NCBI GenBank assembly: GCA_039707465.1
Contig: CM077651.1
Span: 18,069,519-18,133,518 of the forward strand
Reading direction: 5' to 3'
DNA length: 64,000 bases
DNA from: Rhabdophis nuchalis
Taxonomy: Eukaryota > Chordata > Lepidosauria > Squamata > Natricidae
Below the pieces are notes generated by a model. It did no database searches, was not told where the DNA came from, and saw only the letters and a program-made list of their open reading frames with translations. Shown one piece after another: positions 8,594-62,094 of this stretch (positions are counted from its first letter, which is position 1; each line of letters starts with the position of its first letter). The position numbers were made by a program, and so were the translations under genes.

Positions 8594-9122
8594 GGGAAAT
8601 TCAATTTTTTTTTACTACCGGTTCTGTGGGCGTCACTTGGTGGGGGAAGGATACTGCAAAATCTCTGTTCCCACCCCACTCCTGGGGGGAAGGATACTGC
8701 AAAATCTCCATTCCCACCCCACTCCTGGGGGAAGGATATTGCAAAATCTCTGTTCCCACCCCACTCCCGGGGGGAAGGATACTGCAAAATCTCCATTCCC
8801 ATCCCACTCCTGGTGGAAGGATACTGCAAAATCTCTGTTCCCACCCCACTCCCGGGGGGAAGGATACTGCAAAATCTCCGTTCCCACCCCACTCCCGGGG
8901 GGAAGGATACTGCAAAATCTCCATTCCCATCCCACTCCCGGGGGAAGGATACTGCAAAATCTCCATTCCCATCCCACTCCTGGTGGAAGGATACTGCAAA
9001 ATCTCCATTCCCATTCCACTCTGGGGCCAGCCAGAGGTGGTATTTGTCGGTTCTCCAAACGACTCAAAATTTCTGTTACCAGTTCTCCAGAACCGGTCAG
9101 AACCTGTTGAATTTCACCCATG
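8594..9122 (+). mobile_element. hAT-type MITE with expanded internal minisatellite
   Basis: Family ends are recognisable: ATTCAATTTTTTTTTACTACCGGTTCTGTGGGCG on the left (written here as landmarks ATTCAA and ACCGGTTCTGTGGGCG) and GGTCAGAACCTGTTGAATTT with CACCCATGG on the right. The middle, normally one AAGGATACTGCAAAATCTCC segment, is amplified to about nine copies of a 42-44 bp unit (8645-9020). Open frames across it on both strands are products of the repeat phase and are not genes. Confidence 0.75.
8645..9020. repeat. Minisatellite, about nine copies of a 42-44 bp unit
   Basis: Each unit reads approximately AAGGATACTGCAAAATCTC, then CATTCCC or TGTTCCC, CACCCCACTC and a short G run. Unit variants differ by CTCC/CTCT and ATCCC/ACCCC. 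Confidence 0.9.
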
Positions 9123-16580: not shown

Positions 16581-17110
16581 GTATTCCCCCAGCAATTAAA
16601 TTAAATTCCAAGAAATTTCCTAGAAAGCTGAAGTTTGTGCTAAGTGTGACATTATGAATCACCAATGTGACAATTGTTTATGATGAAAAAAAAAATCTTT
16701 GAATTGAGTTTGTAAAAAAGATAAGTCAGCTTTGAAAAAAATGTCTCCATCATGAGGATCACAACCTTTAGAGAAGCATTGGAATAGCAGGACGTATTCT
16801 TGGTAATCCTAGTTTCTTTTGGCAATGCCTTATAGCTATTGGGTTTTCTTTTTAGCTTTCCTTTCAGTCTTGTAATCTTCTTAAACCCATTGGCTCAAGA
16901 GATTGTTCTGGATTCTATTTTAATGTTACATGATTCCATCCAACACAAACCCCTTTTCTAGTTTCTAGACTAGAATCTGCAAAACTTCTTTTTCAAAAGT
17001 AAGATAGATGGATAGTATCAAATCACATGAAATATTAATACTATGTATGTATGTATGCATGCATGTATGTATCTATGTATATATACGTGTGTGTGTGTGT
17101 GTATGTGTTA
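16581..17110. other. Unique sequence ending in TATG/TG simple repeats
   Basis: A (TATG)n run at about 17041-17080 and a short (TG)n run at about 17087-17102; otherwise nothing recognised. Confidence 0.6.
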
Positions 17111-17111
17111 C

Positions 17112-17247
17112 ATTTTGTGCTGCTAAATAAATAAACAAGGGAGACTAGTATAGATCTATTTCAAGCTATTTAGCTCTCATCAGCTAGCCATACCTTTACT
17201 GGGATTCGAACCATGGGAAGTATTACATGTAAGGCAGTTGTAATTGC
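17112..17247 (-). mobile_element. tRNA-like ribozyme unit C (subfamily A), 5'-truncated
   Basis: On the minus strand it reads ACTGCCTTACATGTAAT, a B box GGTTCGAATCC (17202-17212), then AGTAAAGGTATGGCTAG and the hammerhead domain, ending with a TTTATTTATTTAGCAGCAC tail. The A-box half is lost into the adjoining (TA)n tract at 17248-17284. It lies immediately downstream, on the same strand, of the subfamily D units. Confidence 0.7.
17143..17189 (-). ncRNA. Hammerhead ribozyme, type I, copy C
   Basis: The 47-nt motif in order: stem I 5' strand GGCTAG, core CTGATGA, stem II GAGCT-AAAT-AGCTT, core GAAA, stem III TAG-AT-CTA closed by A15.1-U16.1, H17 = A, stem I 3' strand CTAGTC. All invariant core nucleotides are present. 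Predicted cleavage follows the A at plus-strand position 17149. Sequence is identical to copies A and B in the 25.6-26.0 kb locus. Confidence 0.85.
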
Positions 17248-17284
17248 ATATATATATAACATATATATATATATATATATATAT

Positions 17285-17440
17285 AAGTTAGATTTTTTAA
17301 GGGCTGAAAATAAAGAGACCAGGATGGATCCATTTCAGGCTTATTAGCCTTCTTCAGCTGGCCATACTCCTTCTACTGGGATTTGAACTGGTGCTTTCCA
17401 GCATATGAGACAGGCTTCTCTATGCCTTGATATATCAGCC
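17285..17440 (-). mobile_element. tRNA-like ribozyme unit D (downstream monomer of a tandem pair)
   Basis: Minus strand: CAAGGCATAGAGAAGCCTGT, ATGCTGGAAAGCACC, B box AGTTCAAATCC (17379-17389), CAGTAGAAGGAGTATGGCC, hammerhead, then CTCTTTATTTTCAGCCCTTA. Compared with unit E its A-box region has lost about 17 bases (GATATATCAAGGCATAG). The left flank is a (TA)n tract. Confidence 0.75.
17317..17363 (-). ncRNA. Hammerhead ribozyme, type I, copy D
   Basis: 47 nt: stem I GGCCAG, core CTGAAGA (N7 = A is allowed), stem II AGGCT-AATA-AGCCT, GAAA, stem III TGG-AT-CCA with A15.1-U16.1, H17 = C, stem I CTGGTC. Relative to copies A-C, one pair in each helix changes by a double substitution (stem I T-A to C-G, stem II A-T to G-C, stem III A-T to G-C). 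Predicted cleavage lies between plus-strand 17322 and 17323. Confidence 0.88.
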
Positions 17441-17600
17441 AATTTACAGGACTCTTAAATGAGAGATAATTATCACAGCTCCTGTTTCAGGGTCCCTTTA
17501 AGGGGAGGAGACTCAACGTCATCCCTCTCTGCCCTTCGACTCATCCTAGAGATCAACCAGACAGAGAACCAATTAGATTACTGCTGTGTGACATTTTTTA
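17441..17600 (-). mobile_element. Inter-ribozyme spacer of the E-D tandem pair
   Basis: On the minus strand this joins the tail of E to the tRNA-like start of D. It contains CACACAGCAGTAATCTAATTGG, GATGAGTCGAAGGGC, TTAAAGGGACCCTGAAACAG (landmarks) and TGTAAATTGGCTGATATATC. Together with the flanks it completes a 321-bp ribozyme-to-ribozyme unit. No coding frame is convincing. Confidence 0.6.
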
Positions 17601-17770
17601 GATATGTGTTAGATTTTTTAAGGACTGAAAATAAAGAGACCAGGATGGATCCATTTCAGGCTTATTAGCCTTCTTCAGCTGGCCATACTCCTTCTACTGG
17701 GATTTGAACTGGTGCTTTCCAGCATATGAGACAAGCTTCTCTATGCCTTGAGCTATCCAGTATCCCTGAT
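17601..17770 (-). mobile_element. tRNA-like ribozyme unit E (upstream monomer)
   Basis: Minus strand: CTGGATAGCTCAAGGCATAG carries a good pol III A-box-like sequence (TAGCTCAAGG), followed by AGCTTGTCTCATATGCTGG, B box AGTTCAAATCC (17700-17710), then the hammerhead and CTCTTTATTTTCAGTCCTTA. The A-to-B box spacing is tRNA-like. A short plus-strand copy of the ribozyme 3' half abuts upstream at 17786-17822. Confidence 0.78.
17638..17684 (-). ncRNA. Hammerhead ribozyme, type I, copy E
   Basis: The 47-nt motif is identical to copy D: GGCCAG, CTGAAGA, AGGCT-AATA-AGCCT, GAAA, TGG-AT-CCA, T, C, CTGGTC. Predicted cleavage is between plus-strand 17643 and 17644, 321 bp from that of copy D. Confidence 0.88.
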
Positions 17771-17785
17771 ATATCAGGGATATAT

Positions 17786-17822
17786 CTGAAATGGATCCTG
17801 AAATGGATCCATCCTGGTCTCT
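17786..17822 (+). ncRNA. Partial hammerhead (3' half), inverted orientation
   Basis: CCTGAAATGGATCCATCCTG with GTCTCT repeats the GAAA core, stem III and stem I 3' strand of subfamily D. The CTGAAGA half is missing. It faces away from unit E, so the locus has an inverted component like the one at 25.89 kb. Confidence 0.7.
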
Positions 17823-17908
17823 TATATATATATTTGTTTTCGTAGATTTTCACGGGTGTACGTATGCTGGCATAGCTGGCTTCGGGGATTTTCCTGTGTA
17901 TAAGGCAT

Positions 17909-18464
17909 AGAAATGTTATTGCAACGTTTCGACAAGATCTCTCTCGTCATCATCAGGCAGGCTTCTGTCTGTGACTGTGACTGCGGAGGCATCGCCCCTC
18001 TTTAAATCTTGGTGGGGAGGGTGGAGTGCTGTCTATTGTTGTGAGTGGGTTGATTGGCTGTGCAGCTGCATCATGACTGGTAGATTGATGCTGATTGGTC
18101 TCATTTGTATGTTTCTCCTTGTTTTGAATTTCAACGGCTGGGGTGGAGGGTGGGGCTCGTCTGCTGGTCAATGCTGGCTTCCAGATGTCTGGTAGGCGGG
18201 AGGTATCATCACGTTTGTTCATGCTGTTAGATTGTTTCTCTATTTCAATGGCTTCTCTGATTATTCTCCTGTTGAGCTGTTCCGCCTTGGAGATCATTTT
18301 AGTTCCTTGAAAGTCAATGTCATGTCCTATAGTTTTGAAATGTTGATAGAGAGATGAGGTATTAAGATGATTTTTTAATGCATTTTTATGTTCAGCAATA
18401 CGTGCACTAATCCTTCTGTTGGTTTGTCCTATGTAAGTGGCAGGGCAACTTTTACATGGAATTT
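17909..18464 (-). repeat. PLE left inverted arm (GIY-YIG end and 3' terminus)
   Basis: It pairs with 19426-19975 over about 550 bp. On the minus strand it encodes the GIY-YIG region including TYIGQTNRRISARI and a 114-codon open frame (17953-18297) with SKAEQLNRRIIREAIEIEK. The end holds CTGATGATGACGAG, CTTGTCGAAACGTTGC, a degenerate hammerhead-like pattern. Confidence 0.85.
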
Positions 18465-18863
18465 TGTAGACTCCTTGGTTTTCTAGCTGGATCTTGTCTT
18501 TCGGGTTCCTTAGGATATTGGTTATTTTTTGGTCGGTGTTGAAGGCTGTCTTGATGTTGTGCTTGTGGAGAATTTTGCTGATTTTGTCTGTGGTACCTTT
18601 AATGTATGGGATGAGGGCAATGCCATTTTCCTGTTCTTTGTCTTGGTTCTTGGGGCGTGTCTCTTGTTGGATTAGTTTGGAGATTGTTTTTCTTCGGAAT
18701 CCGTTGAATATTTATGTATTTGTGAGGAAGTGTATTTCGGTTTTCAGATGGTCTTTGTCAGCTAGGCGTTTGGTTCTGTGTATGAGGGTTTTGGCTACAG
18801 AGTTTATCTGTGCAGGGTGGTGATGGGATTGTGCATTTAGGTAGGGTTGGTGTGTGGTTTTTT
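18465..18863 (-). pseudogene. PLE linker/thumb region, frameshifted
   Basis: In mixed frames on the minus strand it reads as PLE sequence: HTNP, HNPITTLHR, KTISKLIQQE-like and SAKFSTSTTSRQPSTPTK segments, with several stops. It joins the RT core to the GIY-YIG arm. Confidence 0.6.
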
Positions 18864-19425
18864 TCAGTAGATGGTGTGTCTCAGGGAGCCATTAGGTTTT
18901 TTGTAGATTAAGACATCTAGAAAAGGGAGTTGGTTGTTGGCTTCTATTTCCATGGTGAATTGTATTTTGGGGTGTAGGGAGTTGAGGTGTGTGAGGAAGT
19001 TGTCCAGTTTTTCTTTCCCATGTGGCCAAATTACAAAAGTGTAATGTACATATCTGAGCCAGAGTTTGGGTTTGTGTTCAGATTTGTCTAGGGCGTTGGT
19101 TTCAAAGTGTTCCATGTATAGGTTTGCGATGACCGGTGAGAGGGGTGATCCCATGGGTGCTCCTTCTATCTGTTTGTATCTTTGGTCATTGTGAATGAAG
19201 TATGTGTTCGTTAGACAGTGGTTGGTCAGATCCAGGATGTGCTTGGGGGGGTTGTATTTATTCTGGATGACTGTCAAGGCTTCTTTTATAGGCATTTGGG
19301 TGAAGAGGGATATGACATCAAAACTCACGAGTAGATCGCTGGGCTGTAGATTTTGTTTTTTTATTGTTTCTATGAAGTGGAAAGAATTTTGTACATGTGA
19401 GTTGATGGATTCTGCGTAGGGTTGT
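18864..19425 (-). pseudogene. PLE reverse transcriptase core, inactivated
   Basis: The minus-strand frame shows RT motif A (SFDVISLFTQMPIKEA), motif B (GAPMGSPLSPVIANLYMEHF) and, at the motif C position, YVHYTFVIW where a YVDD-type sequence is expected; both catalytic aspartates are replaced. FLDVLIYKKPNGSL follows, typical of PLE RTs. The enclosing open frame continues to 19502, but its first residues translate the antisense of the inverted arm rather than RT. The N-terminal RT region is missing. Confidence 0.8.
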
Positions 19426-19975
19426 AAATTCCATGTAAAAGCTGCCCTGCCACTTACATAGGACAAACCAACAGAAGGATTAGTGCACATATTGCTGAAC
19501 ATAAAAATGCATTAAAAAATCATCTTAATACCTCATCTCTCTATCAACATTTCAAAACTACAGGACATGACATTGACTTTCAAGGAACTAAAATGATCTC
19601 CAAGGCGGAACAGCTCAACAGGAGAATAATCAGAGAAGCCATTGAAATAGAGAAACAATCTAACAGCATGAACAAATGTGATGATACCTCCCGCCTACCA
19701 GACATCTGGAAGCCAGCATTGACCAGCAGACGAGCCCCACCCTCCACCCAAGCCGTTGAAATTCAAAACAAGGAGAAACATACAAATGAGACCAATCAGC
19801 ATCAATCTACCAGTCATGATGCAGCTGCACAGCCAATCAACCCACTCACAACAATAGTCAGCACTCCACCACCCCCCACCAAGATTTAAAGAGGGGCGAT
19901 GCCTCCGCAGTCACAGTCACAGACAGAAGCCTGATGACAAGTGAGATCTTGTCGAAACGTTGCAATAACATTTCT
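19426..19975 (+). repeat. PLE right inverted arm
   Basis: It starts AAATTCCATGTAAAAGCTGC, directly abutting the 5'-truncated RT core. It encodes TYIGQTNRRIS and a 98-codon frame (19593-19889) almost identical to the left-arm frame (MNKCDD against MNKRDD, PSTQAVE against PSTPAVE). Its 3' end lacks about 8 bases relative to the left arm near GCCTGATGACAAG. Confidence 0.85.
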
Positions 19976-23099: not shown

Positions 23100-23261
23100 A
23101 TTATACGTATTTACCACCAGAAAGCCACAAATGGCTTCTACAATGTTTTTATAAATTTCATTCCAAATTCTGAATATATATTTTTTAATTTAGCCACAAA
23201 GAATAACATGGGGTGAAATTTTCATGGATCAGTGCCTTTTATTGTTAGTTAGAAATTATAT

Positions 23262-23712
23262 CATAGAATAACAAAGTTGGAAGGGACCTTGGAGGTCTTG
23301 TAGTCCAACCCCCTGCTTAGGCAGGAAACCCTATACCACTGGTTATCCAACATCTTAAAAACTTCCAGTGTTGGAGCATTCACAACTTCTGGAGGCAAGT
23401 TGTTCCATTGATTAATTATTCTAACTGTCAGGAAATTTCTCCTTAGTTTTAAGTTGCTTCTTTCCTTGATTAGTTTCCACCCATTGCTTCTTGTCCAGCC
23501 CTCAGGTGCTTTGGGGGATAGCTTGACTCTCTCTTCTTTGTGGCAGCCTCTGAGATATTGGAACACTGCTATTAGGTCTCCCCTAGTCCTTCTTTTCATT
23601 AAACTAGACATACCCAGTTCCTGTAACCGTTCTTCATAGGTTTTAGCCTCCGGGCCCCTAATCATCTTTTTTGCTCTTCTCTGCACTCTTTCTAGAGTTT
23701 CTGTGTAATGGA
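23262..23712 (-). mobile_element. CR1 LINE ORF2 C-terminal fragment
   Basis: The minus-strand frame contains ETLERVQRRAKKMIRGPEAK, YEERLQELGMSSLMKRRTRG, DLIAVFQYLRGCHKEE, WKLIKERSNLKLRRNFLTV and IINQWNNLPPEVV, the conserved CR1 post-RT region. It is 5'-truncated and ends in the usual TTGGAAGGGACCTTGGAGGT 3' UTR read in reverse. Confidence 0.9.
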
Positions 23713-23764
23713 GGACAAGGCAGAAGGAAGAAATATAACAACACTCTTTGCTCTCTTTAGGCAT

Positions 23765-25435
23765 CCCTTGAAAGCATTTTGATGAAGAAGCTATTTTGCA
23801 GAAGAAAACATTTGGGAGATGGGATTTGGCACACTAATCGCAATAACGTTCAGATAATATGATGAACATTTAAGCAAAGTTCTATTTTGGAATATGAATT
23901 TTCATCTGTTAGCATTTTTTGAAAACTTTTTGAGGAAAACAAATATTTATTATTTTAGTGCTATGCAGAGCAAAGGAAGTTTTCCCATCGTTTTCTTGAG
24001 CACTCATATAAGGATTTTTCCCCCCAAGAAGGAAGATTAATGAAGGAGGAACAGCAAGTATTTGAGTAGGAGGACAACTTGCCTTAATGATGCTTTGCTA
24101 AAATAACATTTCTTATATTTACAAAGCAATTCTGTAATTATTTCTTCCTTTTCAGTGGTCTCTCAAACAAGCCAGGACCTCATGAGTTACCAAAATGTAT
24201 CATATGCTGAATATTTTTATTTCGAAAGATGATTAGGTTCAGTGAAGCATTTTACAGAACTCCTCTGTGCAATAAATTATATGATTGAAGAAACTGTTTC
24301 CTTGGCTCCCTTCGTTCTGTCCACACCTTTGCAGCACAAAATCCTTTGTTACTGCAATTATTTTCAGGCAAAAAGAAGGCTATCATTATCAAAACAGAAA
24401 TGTAAATATTAATACTGGAAGAGTTAGCCTGTAGCCTTATAACAACATTATTTTTATTCATTACATTTTAACGATTTCATTCCCCCCCCCCCCCCAGTTA
24501 ATTAGGAATATTTTAGCTTTAATGGAGAGCAACGTCATGGGAAAAGATTTTATTTCCCCAAATTTGTGCAGGAAGTGAGTGTAACAAAGCTGTAGAATTA
24601 CCTTTTTTCCTCTCTCTGATCATTCAATAAAATCATTTGTGAAAGATAATGGAAATAGTTTTACATTGATTACATTGATTACATAATCAAACTGTGAAAG
24701 TTATAAGTATGAGATGTGAGGCTGGGCACCAGTTTAGAATGCTTTAAAAGGAAACTCACACTCCAAAGAGCTATCTGTCTTAATGTCCATTTATGACTTC
24801 CTGAGTCATAAACATTAATTAAATATTATGGGACTACATACTGAGCAAAGATTTAAATGTTTGCTCTCCTTATATTTAACCTTTATGTAGAAATTGGCTT
24901 TCTGTGCAGAAGCCTCAGCCAGAATCTTCAGATTGATTATTTACTGCAGACAAGAATAAAGACTACTGCATGTACCAGTGTATGTACTAGTGTATACTTC
25001 ATAGTTTTAAGACTTGGGTTTTTCATTCCAGCCTTTTCAAGTCGATCGATATTTAGCCTTGATAGCCTTGAAAATCCTTGATTTGGGTAGACTTAGTGGT
25101 TTGGTTGAACCTGGGAACTTTTGGTTCCAATCTTACCAGCTTAATTCTTTATGAGTACCATCTTTGGAATGAAGTTCCAAAGAACTTCTGGTAAAGTTCT
25201 TCTAAGTCTTTCTAAGTTTCTTGAATGACTCCACAATGACATGTGCAAAAAATATGCCTAGTGGAGTTCTTCTGTACTCCATACCCAAAATTTTAGTTTC
25301 CTTCTGAGGTCTTGCCTGTCATGCCTTGTGATTGATTTCCATTTCAGTTTCCAGTTAAATATGCTTACAGGATTGCTGTTGTTTTTTTGTCCTCATTTCC
25401 ATTGTAAAGTGGTGAATATGGAAAGCAGAAAAGAA
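23765..25435. other. Mostly unique AT-rich sequence
   Basis: A C run at 24482-24496 is the only simple repeat. No credible genes. Low repeat content leaves room for conserved noncoding elements. Confidence 0.45.
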
Positions 25436-25545
25436 ACTTATATATTTGGAGATATAGAGATAGATGGAGATAGATGGATGGATGGATGGATGGATGGATG
25501 GATATAGGTATAAGTATAGGTATAGATGATATTGATATGTGTTGA
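25436..25545. repeat. (GATA)/(GATG) simple repeat
   Basis: GGAGATAGATGGATGGATGG units, then GGTATA variants. Confidence 0.8.
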
Positions 25546-25572
25546 ATTTGTGCTGATAAATAAATAAAGAGA

Positions 25573-25619
25573 GACTAGTATAGATCTATTTCAAGCTATT
25601 TAGCTCTCATCAGCTAGCC
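25573..25619 (-). ncRNA. Hammerhead ribozyme, type I, copy B
   Basis: 47 nt: GGCTAG, CTGATGA, GAGCT-AAAT-AGCTT, GAAA, TAG-AT-CTA, T, A, CTAGTC. Identical to copies A and C. Predicted cleavage is between plus-strand 25578 and 25579. Confidence 0.87.
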
Positions 25620-25871
25620 ATACTCTTACTGGGATTTGAACCTGGACTGTTTTTACATGTTAGGCAGTTGTATTAGCTACTAAGCCACAAGCTCTCCTCC
25701 CTTATCAGCTGAGCCAAGGAAATAAGTAAGTGTTATGTCAAAGCACGTGGTATGCCCAAATATGGGAGGGAGCATACTGCTTCCCTTTTTGCCTTTCAGC
25801 TCCACCCTAAGAGCCTTCCAGGCAGGAAACCATTTTTGTGTTGCATTTGTGATGATAAATAAATGAAGGGA

Positions 25872-25890
25872 GACTAGTATAGATCTATTT
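25872..25890 (-). ncRNA. Half hammerhead (3' part) at inversion junction
   Basis: Only AAATAGATCTATACTAGTC (minus strand) remains: the end of the GAAA core, stem III, the cleavage position and the stem I 3' strand. The 5' half is replaced by the oppositely oriented unit beginning ACTTACTTATGTCC. Confidence 0.75.
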
Positions 25891-26192
25891 ACTTACTTAT
25901 GTCCTTGGCTCAGTTGAGAAAGGAGGAGAGCTTGTGGTTTAGTGGCAAATACAACTGCCTAACATGTAAAAACAGCCCAGGTTCAAATCCCAGTAACGGT
26001 GTGGCTAGCTGATGAGAGCTAAATAGCTTGAAATAGATCTATACTAGTCTCCCTTTATTTATTTATCAGCACAAATGCAACACAAAAATGGTTTTCTGCC
26101 TGGAAGGCTCCTAGGGTGGAACTGAAAGGCAAAAAGGGAAGCAGTATGCTCCCTCCCATATTTGGGCATACCAGGTGCTTTGACATAACACA
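25891..26192 (+). mobile_element. Ribozyme unit A (plus strand), inverted partner of unit B
   Basis: ACTTACTTATGTCCTTGGC, then a tRNA-like region: A-box-like GTGGTTTAGTGGCAAAT (about 25934), B box GGTTCAAATCC (25980-25990), CAGTAACGGTGTGGCTAG, complete hammerhead, TTATTTATTTATCAGCAC tail and linker X, ending at GACATAACAC where a (GATATA)n run begins. Linker X here is the reverse complement of 25730-25848. Confidence 0.8.
26003..26049 (+). ncRNA. Hammerhead ribozyme, type I, copy A
   Basis: Stem I 26003-26008 with 26044-26049 (GGCTAG/CTAGTC, one G-U). Core CTGATGA 26009-26015. Stem II 26016-26020 with 26025-26029, loop AAAT. Core GAAA 26030-26033. Stem III 26034-26036 with 26039-26041 plus A15.1-U16.1 (26033-26042). 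H17 is A26043, with predicted cleavage after it. All invariant core bases are intact, so self-cleavage is plausible; activity is not shown. Confidence 0.88.
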
Positions 26193-26333
26193 GATATAGA
26201 TATAGATATAGATAGATATAGATAGATATAGATATAGATATAGATATAGATATAGATATAGATATAGATATAGATATAGATAGAGATAGAGATAGAGATA
26301 GAGATAGAGATAGAGATAGAGATAGAGATAGAT
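26190..26333. repeat. (GATATA)n and (GATAGA)n hexanucleotide array
   Basis: About 90 bp of GATATA units followed by about 55 bp of GATAGA units, starting where linker X of unit A ends. Confidence 0.9.
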
Positions 26334-30435: not shown

Positions 30436-30910
30436 GGTAAGGACACACTTGGAATACTGCATTCAGTTTGGTCGCCACAATGTATGCTGAGATTCAAGAG
30501 TGCAGAGAAGAGCAGCAAAGATAATGAGGGGACTGGAGGCTAAAACATATGAGGAACGGTTGCAGGAACTGGGTGTGTCTAGTTTAATGAAAAGGAGGAC
30601 TAGGGGAGACCTGATAGCAGCGTTCCAATATGTCAGGGGCTGCCACAAAGAAGAAGGAATCAAGCTATTCTCCAAAGCACCTGAGGGTAGAACAAGAAGC
30701 AATGGGTGGAAACTAACCACAGAGAAAAGCAACTTAGAACTAAGGAGAAATTTCTTGACAGTTAGAACAATTAATCAGTGGAACAACTTGTCTCCAATGC
30801 TCCAACAATGGACGTTTTTTAGAAGATGTTGGATAACCATTTGTCTGAAGTGGTGTAGGAGGTTGTACTAGAAGACCTCCAAGGTCCCTTCCAACTCTGT
30901 TATTCTAGTC
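30436..30910 (+). mobile_element. CR1 LINE ORF2 C-terminal fragment
   Basis: Plus-strand frame: QRRAAKIMRGLEAK, TYEERLQELGVSSLMKRR, GDLIAAFQYVRGCHKEEG, SNLELRRNFLTVRTINQWNN, then the 3' UTR CTAGAAGACCTCCAAGG and CTTCCAACTCTGTTATTCT. A small deletion has shifted the frame after INQWNN. Confidence 0.9.
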
Positions 30911-47499: not shown

Positions 47500-48040
47500 T
47501 TAAAAACCATTTGTAGCAAGACCCCATTTGGAATACTGCATCAAGTTCTAGACACAACAACATAAAAAAAAAAGATACAGAGAGTCTGGAAAGAGTGCAG
47601 AGAAGGGCAGCAAGAATGATTAAGAGGCTGGAGGTTAAAACACGGGAAGAACAGTTACAGGAATTGGGTATGTCTAGTCTAATGAAAAGAAGGACTAGAA
47701 GAGAAATGATAGCAGTGTTCCAATATTTGAGGGGCTCCCACAAAGAAGAGGGCATCAATCTATTTACCAAAGCACCAAAAGGCAAGATGAGAAACAATGG
47801 ATGGAAACTAGCCAAGGAGAGAAGCAACCTAGAACTAAGGAGAATTTTCCCACAAGTGAGAACAATCAACCAATGGAACAGTTTGCCTTCAGAGGTTGGG
47901 GTGCTTCATCACTGGAGGCTTTCAAAAAGAGACTGGACAACCATTTATTTGAAATGGAATAGGGACTCCTACTCAAGTAGGGGCTGGGACTAGGAGACCT
48001 CCAAGATCCCATCCTACTCTATTATTCCATATTCTATGTT
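47500..48040 (+). mobile_element. CR1 LINE ORF2 C-terminal fragment
   Basis: Plus-strand frame QRRAARMIKRLEVKTREEQL, QELGMSSLMKRRTRREM, IAVFQYLRGSHKEEG, SNLELRRIFPQVRTINQWNS, then GGACTAGGAGACCTCCAAG and a CTATTATTCC tail. Some upstream CR1 sequence is present from about 47506 (ACCCCATTTGGAATACTGC). Confidence 0.9.
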
Positions 48041-55495: not shown

Positions 55496-56035
55496 TAGAA
55501 TAGAATAAAATAGAAGAGAAGAGAAGAGTTGGAAGATATCTTGGAGGTCTTCTAGTCCAATCCCCTGATTAGGCAGGAAACCCTTCACACTTCAGACAAA
55601 TGGTTATCCAAAATATTCTTAAAAACTTCCAGTGTTGGCACAACTTCTGGAGGCAAGTTGTTCCATGGATTAATTGTCCTGTCAGGAGATTTCTCCTTAG
55701 TTCTAGGTGGCTTCCCTCCTTGATTAATTTCCACCCATTGCTTCTTGTCCTGTTCTCAGATGCTTTGGAGAATAGCTTGACTCCTTCTTCTTTGTGGCAG
55801 CCCCGGAGATATTGAAACACTGCTGTCATGTCTCCTCTAGTCCTTCTTTTCATTAAACTAGACATACCCAGGTCCTGCAACTGTTCTTTGTATGTTTTAG
55901 CCTCCAGTCTCCTAATCATCTTTGTTGCTCTTCTCTGCACTCTTTCTAGAGTCTCCACCTCTTTTTTATATTGTGATGACCAAAACTGGATGCCGTATTC
56001 CAAGTGTGGCCTTACCAAGGCATTATAAAGTGGTA
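55496..56035 (-). mobile_element. CR1 LINE ORF2 C-terminal fragment with AATAG-like tail
   Basis: Minus frame 55569-56018: MVRPHLEYGIQFWSSQYKK, ETLERVQRRATKMIRRLEAK, LQDLGMSSLMKRRTRGDMTA, VFQYLRGCHKEEG, WKLIKEGSHLELRRNLL. The 3' side abuts AATAGAATAGAATAAAATAG. The longest CR1 ORF remnant upstream in this window (it reaches VRPHLEYGIQFW). Confidence 0.92.
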
Positions 56036-56925
56036 TTAACTCTTCACATAATCTTGATTCTATCTCTCTGTTGTAGGATAATGAAGGATGTACTTAGAAA
56101 GAACCATGCATGCTAGCCAGCTATGTCTAACCCCTGACTTCAGATCAGAATAAAAAAAGAATCCAGTGTTTCCATTTTTAAGCGAAGAAGCAACAGCCTT
56201 TTTTCCAAAAAGGTGACATTTTAAAGTTTGATTTTTTACATTGGTGTAGGGCTATGCATTTCTTTAGTCTCTTTGTTAGACACCAAACTTTAGCATATCT
56301 TTTCTTCAGGTCTGCTACCTCTGCTTTAAAGGAGAATATTTTTTTAAAAAAAAACTATTGAAGGCATAAGGTGAATCACTGCAGAGTTCGTGAAGGTTTA
56401 CAATTCCTGCTACTTTCATGTCAATTTGTCCCAAAATGAAAAAAAAAAGTTTTAATGATACCCCATTATAGCATATGGATTTTTTTCCCTCCTTAAATTA
56501 AATTTCAAGAAGCATCAGTCAAAATGGATTGCCCTTGAATCTCAAACTGCTAACTCAGATTGAATCAGGCTCTTTTTTAAAATTTTAATCTCTAATTCAA
56601 ACTGGATCAGATCCAAGTCTATTGTTTTCTTCTTAATGATACTGGTATACTAAAGATGGTTTAATTTACTTTATTGCACAGAGGCCATTACATCTTTCTG
56701 TGCATTGTTAAAAGCTGTCAATCTTTCTAGGCCAGCAGTCATTATATCTTGCATACATAAATCCCTGAAGTTACTGGACAGTTTCAAACATCCCATTTCT
56801 CCAGTGGGTGATCTGAAAGTGGAAAGCTCACAGTTTAACATTTCGAGATGATCTGTACTGACTATCTGCAGCCCTTTCAAATGGGAGATGGGATAGAAAC
56901 AACTTTGTTAGGTAACTTATGTCTG
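56036..56925. other. AT-rich unique sequence
   Basis: Nothing recognised. Confidence 0.45.
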
Positions 56926-61245: not shown

Positions 61246-61680
61246 ACACAGTCCTAATTTGAAAGCAACCTCAGTCCAGCTTGGAAATAGAAAAAATATA
61301 ACTATATAAGGAATATAAAGAGATCTTACTCAGAGTTATTAGCATTTCATCAGCAGCCAGCCAGGATAACAACTACAGAGACAAAGATTTAGATATTGCT
61401 GTTTATTGTGAAGTTCTTTTTCCTTCCATTCCTTCTAATGCAAATAAATGAAGTAGTTCAGCTCTTGCACTGACAATTTTCCAGTGCTGTCTGGGGTTAA
61501 TGAGTATGCTAATAGACTTAAATATTAAGCCATTAATTATTAAATGTTTGATCTAGTTAGACAGATATATAAGAATTAATGAATATAAATGTATTTGCCA
61601 TAACTTACTATTGCTTAACATTGTGAAAACAGAGAAGAGATGTTTTGGAATCCTACCCAGTAACATGAGTGCTGTTCTAA
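61246..61680. other. AT-rich unique sequence
   Basis: Nothing recognised. Confidence 0.45.
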
Positions 61681-61684
61681 ACTT

Positions 61685-62094
61685 TAGGAATAGAATAACG
61701 GAGTTGGAAGGAACTTTGGAGGTCTACTAGTCCAATTTTCTGCTTAGGCAGGAAAACCTCTACCATTACAGACAAATGATTATCCAACATCTTCTTAAAA
61801 ACTTCAAGTGTTGAAGCATTCCCAACTTCTGGAGGTAAATTGTTCCACTGATTAATTGTTCTAACTGTCAGGAAATTTATATTTAGTTCTAAGTTGCTTC
61901 TCTCCTTGATTAGTTTCCACCCATTGCTTCTTGTTCTACACTCAGATGCTTTGGAGAATAGTTTGACTCCCATTTCCTTGTGGGAATTCCTGAGATATCG
62001 GAACACTGCTATCATGTCACCTCTAGTCCTTCTTTCAATTAAACTAGACATACCCAGTTCCAGCTGGGTTTTAGCCTCCAGTCCCCTAATCATC
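61685..62094 (-). mobile_element. CR1 LINE ORF2 C-terminal fragment, minus
   Basis: Minus frame 61677-62093: MIRGLEAKTQLELGMSSLIE, RRTRGDMIAVFRYLRNSHKE, SNLELNINFLTVRTINQWNN, LPPEVGNASTLEVFKKMLDN. A short deletion has removed the YEERLQ segment. Confidence 0.9.

Follow-up and report, generated by a model that had tools for sequence, protein, structure and literature searches.

The 64,000-nt stretch of Rhabdophis nuchalis DNA analyzed here (the window) contains short segments that resemble hammerhead ribozymes and lie next to tRNA-like promoter motifs, which raises the question whether they form a mobile family, what part the ribozyme plays in it, and which enzyme copies it. Our reading, with a probability of roughly 0.77, is that they are non-autonomous retroelements (units of about 299-345 nt) composed of a tRNA head, a type I hammerhead and a non-coding body, and likely moved by a Penelope-like element (PLE). 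In our view, this is a retrozyme with a tRNA head that travels like a SINE as the passenger of a PLE. The main addition to the earlier note on this DNA is the insertion signature of the best-matching copies and its resemblance to that of PLEs.

The core-plus-helix scan of the 64-kb window yields exactly five complete type I hammerheads. Three of them are minus-strand segments of 47 nt that had been described before, and each is indeed a complete core; the remaining two, near 25.6 and 26.0 kb, come from the scan and are absent from the earlier note.

17143 to 17189, minus strand: hammerhead core, subfamily B; cleavage predicted between 17149 and 17148
17317 to 17363, minus strand: hammerhead core, subfamily A; cleavage predicted between 17323 and 17322
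17638 to 17684, minus strand: hammerhead core, subfamily A; cleavage predicted between 17644 and 17643
25573 to 25619, minus strand: hammerhead core, subfamily B
26003 to 26049, plus strand: hammerhead core, subfamily B

An origin of these matches by chance is rejected, as shuffled windows seldom yield one: in 300 dinucleotide shuffles the mean number of hammerhead matches scoring at least 13 is 0.017, and the top shuffle match scores 14, the five real cores scoring 14-15. Nor are the five hammerheads independent events, being copies of one repeat. Subfamily A (17317, 17638) has the core CUGAAGA and the cleavage site AUC; subfamily B (17143, 25573, 26003) has CUGAUGA and AUA. The three B copies in the window are identical in the 47-nt core and differ in 10-14 of 67-69 flanking positions. 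BLAST within the window finds no additional full copy, and a covariance model adds one more truncated copy and two weak matches (E 0.8 and 3.7).

Rfam hammerhead models, by which the ribozymes had been proposed to be checked, give a mixed answer. At gathering thresholds there are no Rfam matches in the window; at lax settings the three B copies at 17.1, 25.6 and 26.0 kb are matched, all below the cut-offs (22-23 bits, cut-offs 34-52), with both A-type copies at 17.3 and 17.6 kb missing from the list. An A-type copy at another locus (L012) reaches 26.7 bits, the cut-off being 52. Since neither the window nor 20 family loci contain an Rfam hammerhead at its cut-offs, default library searches overlook the family. 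The folding energy of the three 47-mers is no better than that of shuffled sequences (z about -0.5 each). Helix III of the ribozyme consists of three pairs only, with a palindromic GAUC loop.

Comparison of copies provides further evidence for the ribozyme. In the genome (1.92 Gb), there are 7,459 exact matches to the 31-nt core pattern, and none to the reversed control. Subfamilies A and B differ in 11 of 47 core positions, yet the hammerhead is valid in both: the changes are confined to N7, loop 2, H17 or base pairs; each helix has one compensatory pair change, and in one pair G-U has become A-U. Among 1,000,000 trials of random 11-nt changes, the hammerhead stays valid in 9 (uniform) or 88 (transition-biased), in a comparison that is partly unblinded, as the A and B copies were picked up through their fit to the motif. 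In a set of 82 copies (the window plus 28 of the first 30 best-matching loci, L001 and L003 being omitted as duplicates), CUGANGA and GAAA are kept in 70, and all 14 pairs are formed in 59 of those, which, judged by sequence, are predicted to be type I hammerheads with a valid core and helices. Covariation over the 82 copies is 0.272, compared with 0.135 in shuffled alignments and at most 0.094 in slid controls, the alignment having been fitted to the hammerhead structure and thus biased in its favour. Pairing covaries in all three helices; six pairs vary on both sides, a count equalled by 20 of 500 shuffles.

Inactive-looking variants of the core are also observed, each at two loci, namely CTAAAGA (L004:1909-2028, L012:1101-1216) and CTGAAAA (L010:206-320, L025:1843-1956). 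As each predicted-inactive variant occurs at two separate loci, broken ribozymes may spread, or the changes recur.

Upstream of the ribozymes there are motifs resembling the internal promoter boxes of tRNA genes. In the window, the B boxes were identified by motif search, and one of the A box-like sequences by eye.

17202 to 17212, minus strand: B box GGTTCGAATCC
17379 to 17389, minus strand: B box-like AGTTCAAATCC
17700 to 17710, minus strand: B box-like AGTTCAAATCC
17744 to 17755, minus strand: A box-like TAGCTCAAGGCA, 33 nt ahead of the B box
25632 to 25642, minus strand: B box GGTTCAAATCC
25676 to 25687, minus strand: A box-like TGGCTTAGTAGC, 33 nt ahead of the B box
25935 to 25946, plus strand: A box-like TGGTTTAGTGGC (by eye), 33 nt ahead of the B box
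25980 to 25990, plus strand: B box GGTTCAAATCC

The first three of these B boxes confirm the motif reported just upstream of each of the three ribozymes first described. Matches to the B box alone occur in the window at near-chance frequency (8 observed, 5.4 expected); their weight comes from the constant placement ahead of the ribozyme, not from mere occurrence. In particular, a B box (with at most one mismatch) is found upstream of 82 of 91 distinct ribozyme copies, compared with 17 of 2000 control stretches, so that the layout of upstream B box plus ribozyme holds for a genomic family, as had been anticipated. An A box (at most two mismatches) precedes 77 of 91 copies and 646 of 2000 controls, and the commonest spacing between the A and B boxes is 33 nt (48 of 91 copies).

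The tRNA itself is recognized rarely, by ARAGORN in one of 59 loci and by Rfam in one match in 20 loci. The Rfam tRNA match (L010:897-961, minus strand, 31.2 bits, cut-off 29) lies five bases ahead of a ribozyme at 845-891 whose core is altered (G12 to A). The ARAGORN call, a tRNA-Met(cat) at L012:856-930 (plus strand), lies three bases ahead of a valid ribozyme at 934. The two programs do not support each other here: ARAGORN misses the L010 head, and Rfam misses the L012 head even at E of at most 1. Neither program, Rfam included, calls a tRNA in the window copies. Boxes and the two single-program calls taken together support a candidate tRNA-derived leader in the family. The description of the units as tRNA-promoted in the earlier note therefore holds as far as signs of such a leader are concerned (two copies, each called by one program); transcription by pol III from the tRNA head is what these signs would imply.

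The borders of the copies in the window, obtained by sequence comparison and repeat annotation, are as follows.

17104 to 17247, minus strand: single subfamily B copy, 5'-truncated (sequence comparison)
17248 to 17285: (TA)n at the 3' end of the A pair (repeat annotation)
17278 to 17777, minus strand: head-to-tail pair of subfamily A (about 1.5 units), with its 3' end near CTAAC and (TA)n after it
17797 to 17823, plus strand: inverted 27-nt subfamily A piece, head-to-head partner of the A pair, followed by a TA-rich stretch
25538 to 25890, minus strand: 353-nt copy of subfamily B (1.18 units) with 3' end CAACACA; forms the left half of a head-to-head pair
25891 to 26191, plus strand: subfamily B copy of 301 nt, one full permuted unit, right half of that pair; begins and ends at CATAACAC
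26192 to 26330: (AGATAT)n following the plus-strand B copy at its 3' end (repeat annotation)

The right border of the A pair, 17777, was taken from the query start common to many genome copies. Measured from cleavage site to cleavage site, the unit length is 299 nt in B and 321 nt in the A pair of the window. The latter distance agrees with the head-to-tail spacing given in the earlier note, while the proposed 321-nt monomer is not the standard unit: the downstream A unit lacks 18 nt of the upstream copy (the missing stretch holds much of the A box), and undeleted A units elsewhere have 339-340 nt. The two A-type units are 96% alike over 159 nt; A and B units align over their full length, weakly in the body. 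The units (299 and 340 nt) are non-coding, with a GC content of 42% and a longest stop-free stretch of 69 codons.

Longer arrays exist as well. At L025:4-1148 there are four tandem units of a diverged subfamily with valid ribozymes and a spacing of 333-345 nt, and beside them a three-unit A array in the opposite orientation, with a changed middle core. Among other repeats of the window there is a 43/85-bp tandem array at 8641-9026 (about nine copies of a 43-bp unit, with open frames in several phases). Open fragments at 23261-23833 and 55569-56093 (both minus strand), similar to 30491-30871, 47517-47993 and 61677-62093, we presume to be LINE-like; Pfam gives no match for the first two.

The genome searches scored 40 candidates each of 1368 (A), 3403 (B) and 2314 (PLE), the loci used were the best of these, and the results describe the best-matching copies. 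Copies are found on at least fourteen contigs, which, together with the core matches counted above, establishes the interspersed and partly tandem genomic family that the earlier note had expected. It is a real and abundant family, and probably a recently active one, as the best A copies are 98-99% identical to the query. A pattern search of viral_contigs gave no matches.

The ends of copies were mapped at 58 best-matching loci placed on the units (60 were retrieved; L001 and L003 were dropped), with each head-to-tail array counted as one segment. Among adjoining segment pairs at these loci, 33 of 37 are head-to-head, two tail-to-tail and two head-to-tail, and a head-to-head pair is present at 30 of the 58 loci. 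This inverted arrangement is absent from the earlier note. In the first 100 core sites of contig C1, a sample selected by similarity to the core only, pairs within 600 bp comprise seven head-to-head, six head-to-tail and one tail-to-tail; five of the six head-to-tail spacings are 305-339 bp.

The 3' ends of copies are concentrated at two sites downstream of the predicted cleavage site, at about 40 nt and at 148 (B) or 189 (A) nt. Among the best-matching loci, A copies end at position 189 in 23 of 57 cases and at 39-48 in 12 of 57, and B copies at 143-151 in 24 of 49 and at 39-47 in 8 of 49, while 5' ends are scattered in both subfamilies. The B query ended at 148 (its site 2), so that loci covering 148 are favoured; the A query ended at 45, hence the A site at 189 was not imposed by it. 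At the same loci, (TA)n follows 22 of 40 preferred A 3' ends (3 of 57 at 5' ends), and (AC)n follows 20 of 32 preferred B 3' ends (1 of 49 at 5' ends). Of the 33 head-to-head pairs, 14 have preferred 3' ends on both outer sides, 14 on one and 5 on neither, and in 31 the halves have overlapping sequence (local alignment of at least 23 nt). A target duplication of at least 7 nt other than a simple repeat is found in none of 58 composites, where flanks of simple repeat can mask duplications; in metazoan retrozymes, such duplications exceed 4 bp when they occur.

As regards the cleavage site itself, 80 of 95 segments at the best-matching loci run across it, and the 5' end falls within 2 nt of it in only 2 of 95. 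This rules out ribozyme cleavage as the border of inserted copies, and the family cannot be called ribozyme-delimited, as it had been before. Cleaved linear monomers thus are not the usual template, and uncut multimers or closed circles remain.

Within the window, four of five 3' ends lie at AACAC (P about 6e-6, calculated after the fact). A general AC-rich start site was considered and rejected, as the commonest A site genome-wide is CTCAT|TTA, and only three of the four sites are AC-rich. The A start site reads CTCATTTAAGAG inside arrays (37 times) and CTCATATATA at ends, which argues against simple slippage as the origin of the (TA)n found there and is better explained by priming on (TA)n DNA ends. 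Slippage is a possible source of (AC)n at B ends.

A candidate for the driving enzyme lies next to the A pair: a PLE, absent from the earlier note, starts 12 nt beyond the right end of the A-type insert.

17836 to 19425, minus strand: PLE, 5'-truncated, with reverse transcriptase and GIY-YIG frames (Pfam, protein matches)
19426 to 19975, plus strand: inverted partial copy of this PLE, 97% identical, head-to-head with it (sequence comparison)

The reverse transcriptase frame matches Pfam RVT_1 with 38.9 bits (cut-off 29.6), and the GIY-YIG frame scores 18.1 bits, under its cut-off of 22.6. The GIY-YIG frame has 44 protein matches, of which the six with vertebrate names all come from lizards or snakes (68-78% identical), in keeping with a squamate host. 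Other named relatives of the frame at 17953-18711 (minus strand) are mostly from beetles, e.g. the fireflies Aquatica and Pyrocoelia (40-56% identity), which may hint at horizontal transfer or a wide PLE clade. A minimal hammerhead-like motif, CTGATGATGACGAG...CTTGTCGAAACG, is also seen in the PLE (about 17925-17956, minus strand), beginning about 120 nt upstream of the 3' end of the element.

PLE copies of the same genome served as the yardstick for the insertion signature. The PLE set comprised the 30 best-matching loci, reduced to 28 by dropping L061 (the window) and L067 (the same place as L063), with segments of at least 88% identity. At the 28 loci, 12 of 15 adjacent PLE pairs are head-to-head, three head-to-tail and none tail-to-tail, and PLE 3' ends fall at two sites (30 of 52 and 7 of 52). 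With all 30 loci, duplicates kept, no identity filter and gaps of up to 25 nt, the counts are 19, 3 and 2, respectively. At the main PLE site, 14 of 30 ends are followed by a simple repeat (the flanks of the other 16 not being simple repeat), and at the second five of six, compared with 7 of 52 at 5' ends. The retrozyme copies carry this PLE-type signature: head-to-head inverted copies, preferred internal 3' ends and scattered 5' ends.

Moreover, the two kinds of elements cluster. Among best-matching loci, 24 of 57 retrozyme loci have PLE pieces no farther than 1.5 kb away (19 of 28 A-seeded and 5 of 29 B-seeded loci), and 21 of 28 PLE loci have retrozyme pieces nearby. The control, 20 tiles of the window, which itself carries both a PLE and a retrozyme, gives 2/20 and 3/20 (Fisher 0.007 for PLE near retrozyme, 4e-5 for retrozyme near PLE). 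At ten junctions, PLE and retrozyme are no more than 6 nt apart, and in five of these they overlap by 1-8 nt; examples are a PLE tail passing into a same-strand retrozyme (L007, L064) and a retrozyme head to head with a PLE (L089). Four of the ten depend on short pieces (28-49 nt). A common target preference and nesting of insertions could also account for the clustering and the junctions. The retrozyme units show no similarity beyond chance to the 3' 1.6 kb of the window PLE; the feature shared with the driver may possibly lie in other PLEs or in a structural signal. Against the PLE link stands the low number of B-seeded loci with PLE pieces given above, and against PLE drive via an AC-rich start, the most used A site, which is not AC-rich.

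The pattern fits what is known of PLEs elsewhere. The PLE protein of the anole extends both DNA strands and prefers AT-rich DNA, and its reverse transcription starts internally, downstream of the hammerhead, in an AC-rich stem-loop, ribozyme cleavage not being needed in vitro (PMC11167929); inverted repeats of rotifer Penelope are mostly head to head, with simple AT-rich targets favoured (PMC3846280). Poseidon of Anolis and Penelope of the rotifer Adineta resemble the family described here, according to these reports (PMC11167929, PMC3846280), in a hammerhead upstream of internal reverse transcription starts, two alternative 3' ends, head-to-head inverted copies, and AT-rich or simple-sequence targets. 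Unlike PLEs, which encode a reverse transcriptase and an endonuclease, the family carries a tRNA head, is without coding sequence and has no sequence in common with the PLE tested. Some rotifer PLE inserts are described with target duplications of 8-10 bp (PMC3846280), while none were detected in the 58 composites here.

In the scheme that we infer, pol III would start at the tRNA head and read through one or more units. The hammerhead could then separate the units of the transcript by cleavage, probably more efficiently as a dimer or with a protein, because helix III has only three pairs with a palindromic GAUC loop. Weak axolotl ribozymes are reported to cleave far better as dimers (PMC7229834), and since helix III here resembles theirs, the same may be true of dimers in this family. 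Uncut, multimeric or re-ligated circular RNA would be captured by the PLE reverse transcriptase/endonuclease, as suggested by the shared signature. Copying would begin at one of the two preferred sites downstream of the ribozyme, on (TA)n or (AC)n DNA ends, and often both sides of a break would be primed, giving the observed pattern of two 5'-truncated copies that meet head to head. Self-cleavage, circles, PLE drive and microsatellite priming are accordingly put here as predictions. We would give even odds to a more specific form, a SINE driven by a PLE and not by a LINE, in which the hammerhead and the downstream start serve as a ticket for the telomerase-related PLE reverse transcriptase, priming occurs on dinucleotide microsatellite ends from both sides of a break, and the RNA start site chooses (AC)n or (TA)n.

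Among other explanations, the classical retrozyme cycle fares best: double self-cleavage frees a unit, tRNA ligase closes the circle, and reverse transcription goes round it, leaving permuted or tandem copies. This route, combinable with PLE drive, we regard as possible and rather doubtful. The plus-strand B copy at 25891-26191 looks like the product of one trip around a circle, as it is a single permuted unit with CATAACAC at both ends; however, its start lies 15 nt ahead of an A-box-like motif (25906-25917), where pol III could start. For nine arrays, the differences between units number 0, 8, 4, 1, 12, 2, 1, 9 and 0 in 174-177 positions. Four of them, with 0-1 differences in about 177 nt, are compatible with one circle, but four others differ at 4-12 of about 175 nt, and divergence within arrays (mean 2.3%, biased upward relative to the comparison, since one unit per locus was chosen for similarity) is about that between loci (2.0%), so that a single circle was not the template of those arrays; one array is ambiguous. 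In the axolotl, circles arise from units of about 330/350 nt (PMC7229834). The frequent spanning of the cleavage site fits a circle and an uncut transcript equally, while the rarity of 5' ends at it speaks against this cycle. A circular fold exposing the ribozyme was also considered and rejected: the minimum-energy circles of A (321-nt form) and B lack the hammerhead, and enforcing it costs 3 (A) and 7 (B) kcal/mol.

SINEs moved by LINEs also have a tRNA head, variable 5' truncation and a fixed 3' end that carries a tail of simple repeat, and twin priming yields head-to-head inversions. An ordinary tRNA SINE moved by a LINE, with the hammerhead in its body and inversions by twin priming, would therefore be expected to show the tRNA head, fixed 3' end, repeat tail, 5' truncation and inversions seen here. 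We consider it unlikely, since 14 of 33 head-to-head pairs have preferred 3' ends on both outer sides, the halves overlap in nearly all of them, no composite has a non-simple target duplication, and PLE copies, the only yardstick here, are also head-to-head and joined to retrozymes. Tandem satellite DNA spread by recombination, with the ribozyme as a relic, would account for the tandem units and the arrays of 3-4 units in L025, but is highly improbable and largely excluded in its pure form by the interspersed copies, the dominance of inverted pairs with ends at preferred sites, the thousands of core matches with none in the reversed control, and the core that is still valid between diverged subfamilies.

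By its structure, i.e. a hammerhead and short tandem non-coding units with a GC content below 50% (the limits applied for metazoan retrozymes being units of 150-450 bp, tandem, GC below 50%, non-coding), the tRNA-headed family that we propose appears metazoan-retrozyme-like. Newt and axolotl satellites have been recognized as metazoan non-LTR retrozymes (Cervera and de la Pena 2020, PMC7229834), and as described there they share with it the type I hammerhead with a very short helix III and a palindromic tetraloop, non-coding tandem units of about 300-350 nt, many copies, and PLEs in the genome. Compared with that description, the features peculiar to the present family are the tRNA head, the many inserts of 1-2 units joined head to head, the preferred 3' ends with (TA)n/(AC)n, and the squamate host. 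The Sm-alpha element of schistosomes is likewise SINE-like and combines a type I hammerhead with tRNA-derived sequence (PMC2770079, PMC8490949); it is set apart, by description, through its tRNA-Gln-TTG and flatworm hosts, one copy here being called as tRNA-Met and the host being a vertebrate. Helenus and Ajax TRIMs are also small non-autonomous elements with small-RNA-gene sequence, but are LTR retrotransposons, and the portion of their description available to us mentions no ribozyme (PMC10886601). The open-access literature yielded no paper on squamate retrozymes; a known SINE entry (Repbase) whose ribozyme went unnoticed is possible.

The evidence extends from the motif, its covariation, the boxes and two tRNA calls to copy number, architecture, PLE-like scars and clustering. 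As the enzyme that moves animal retrozymes, PLEs have been named a strong candidate on account of tandem copies, co-existence and shared type I hammerheads (PMC7229834). In the one genome analyzed here, a retrozyme is tied to a PLE by insertion scars, clustering and junctions, and as an active lizard PLE protein already exists in vitro (PMC11167929), the question of PLE drive is directly testable. Like schistosome Sm-alpha, the family combines a tRNA head with a hammerhead, here in a vertebrate, and its scars point to a Penelope-type enzyme that may copy it.
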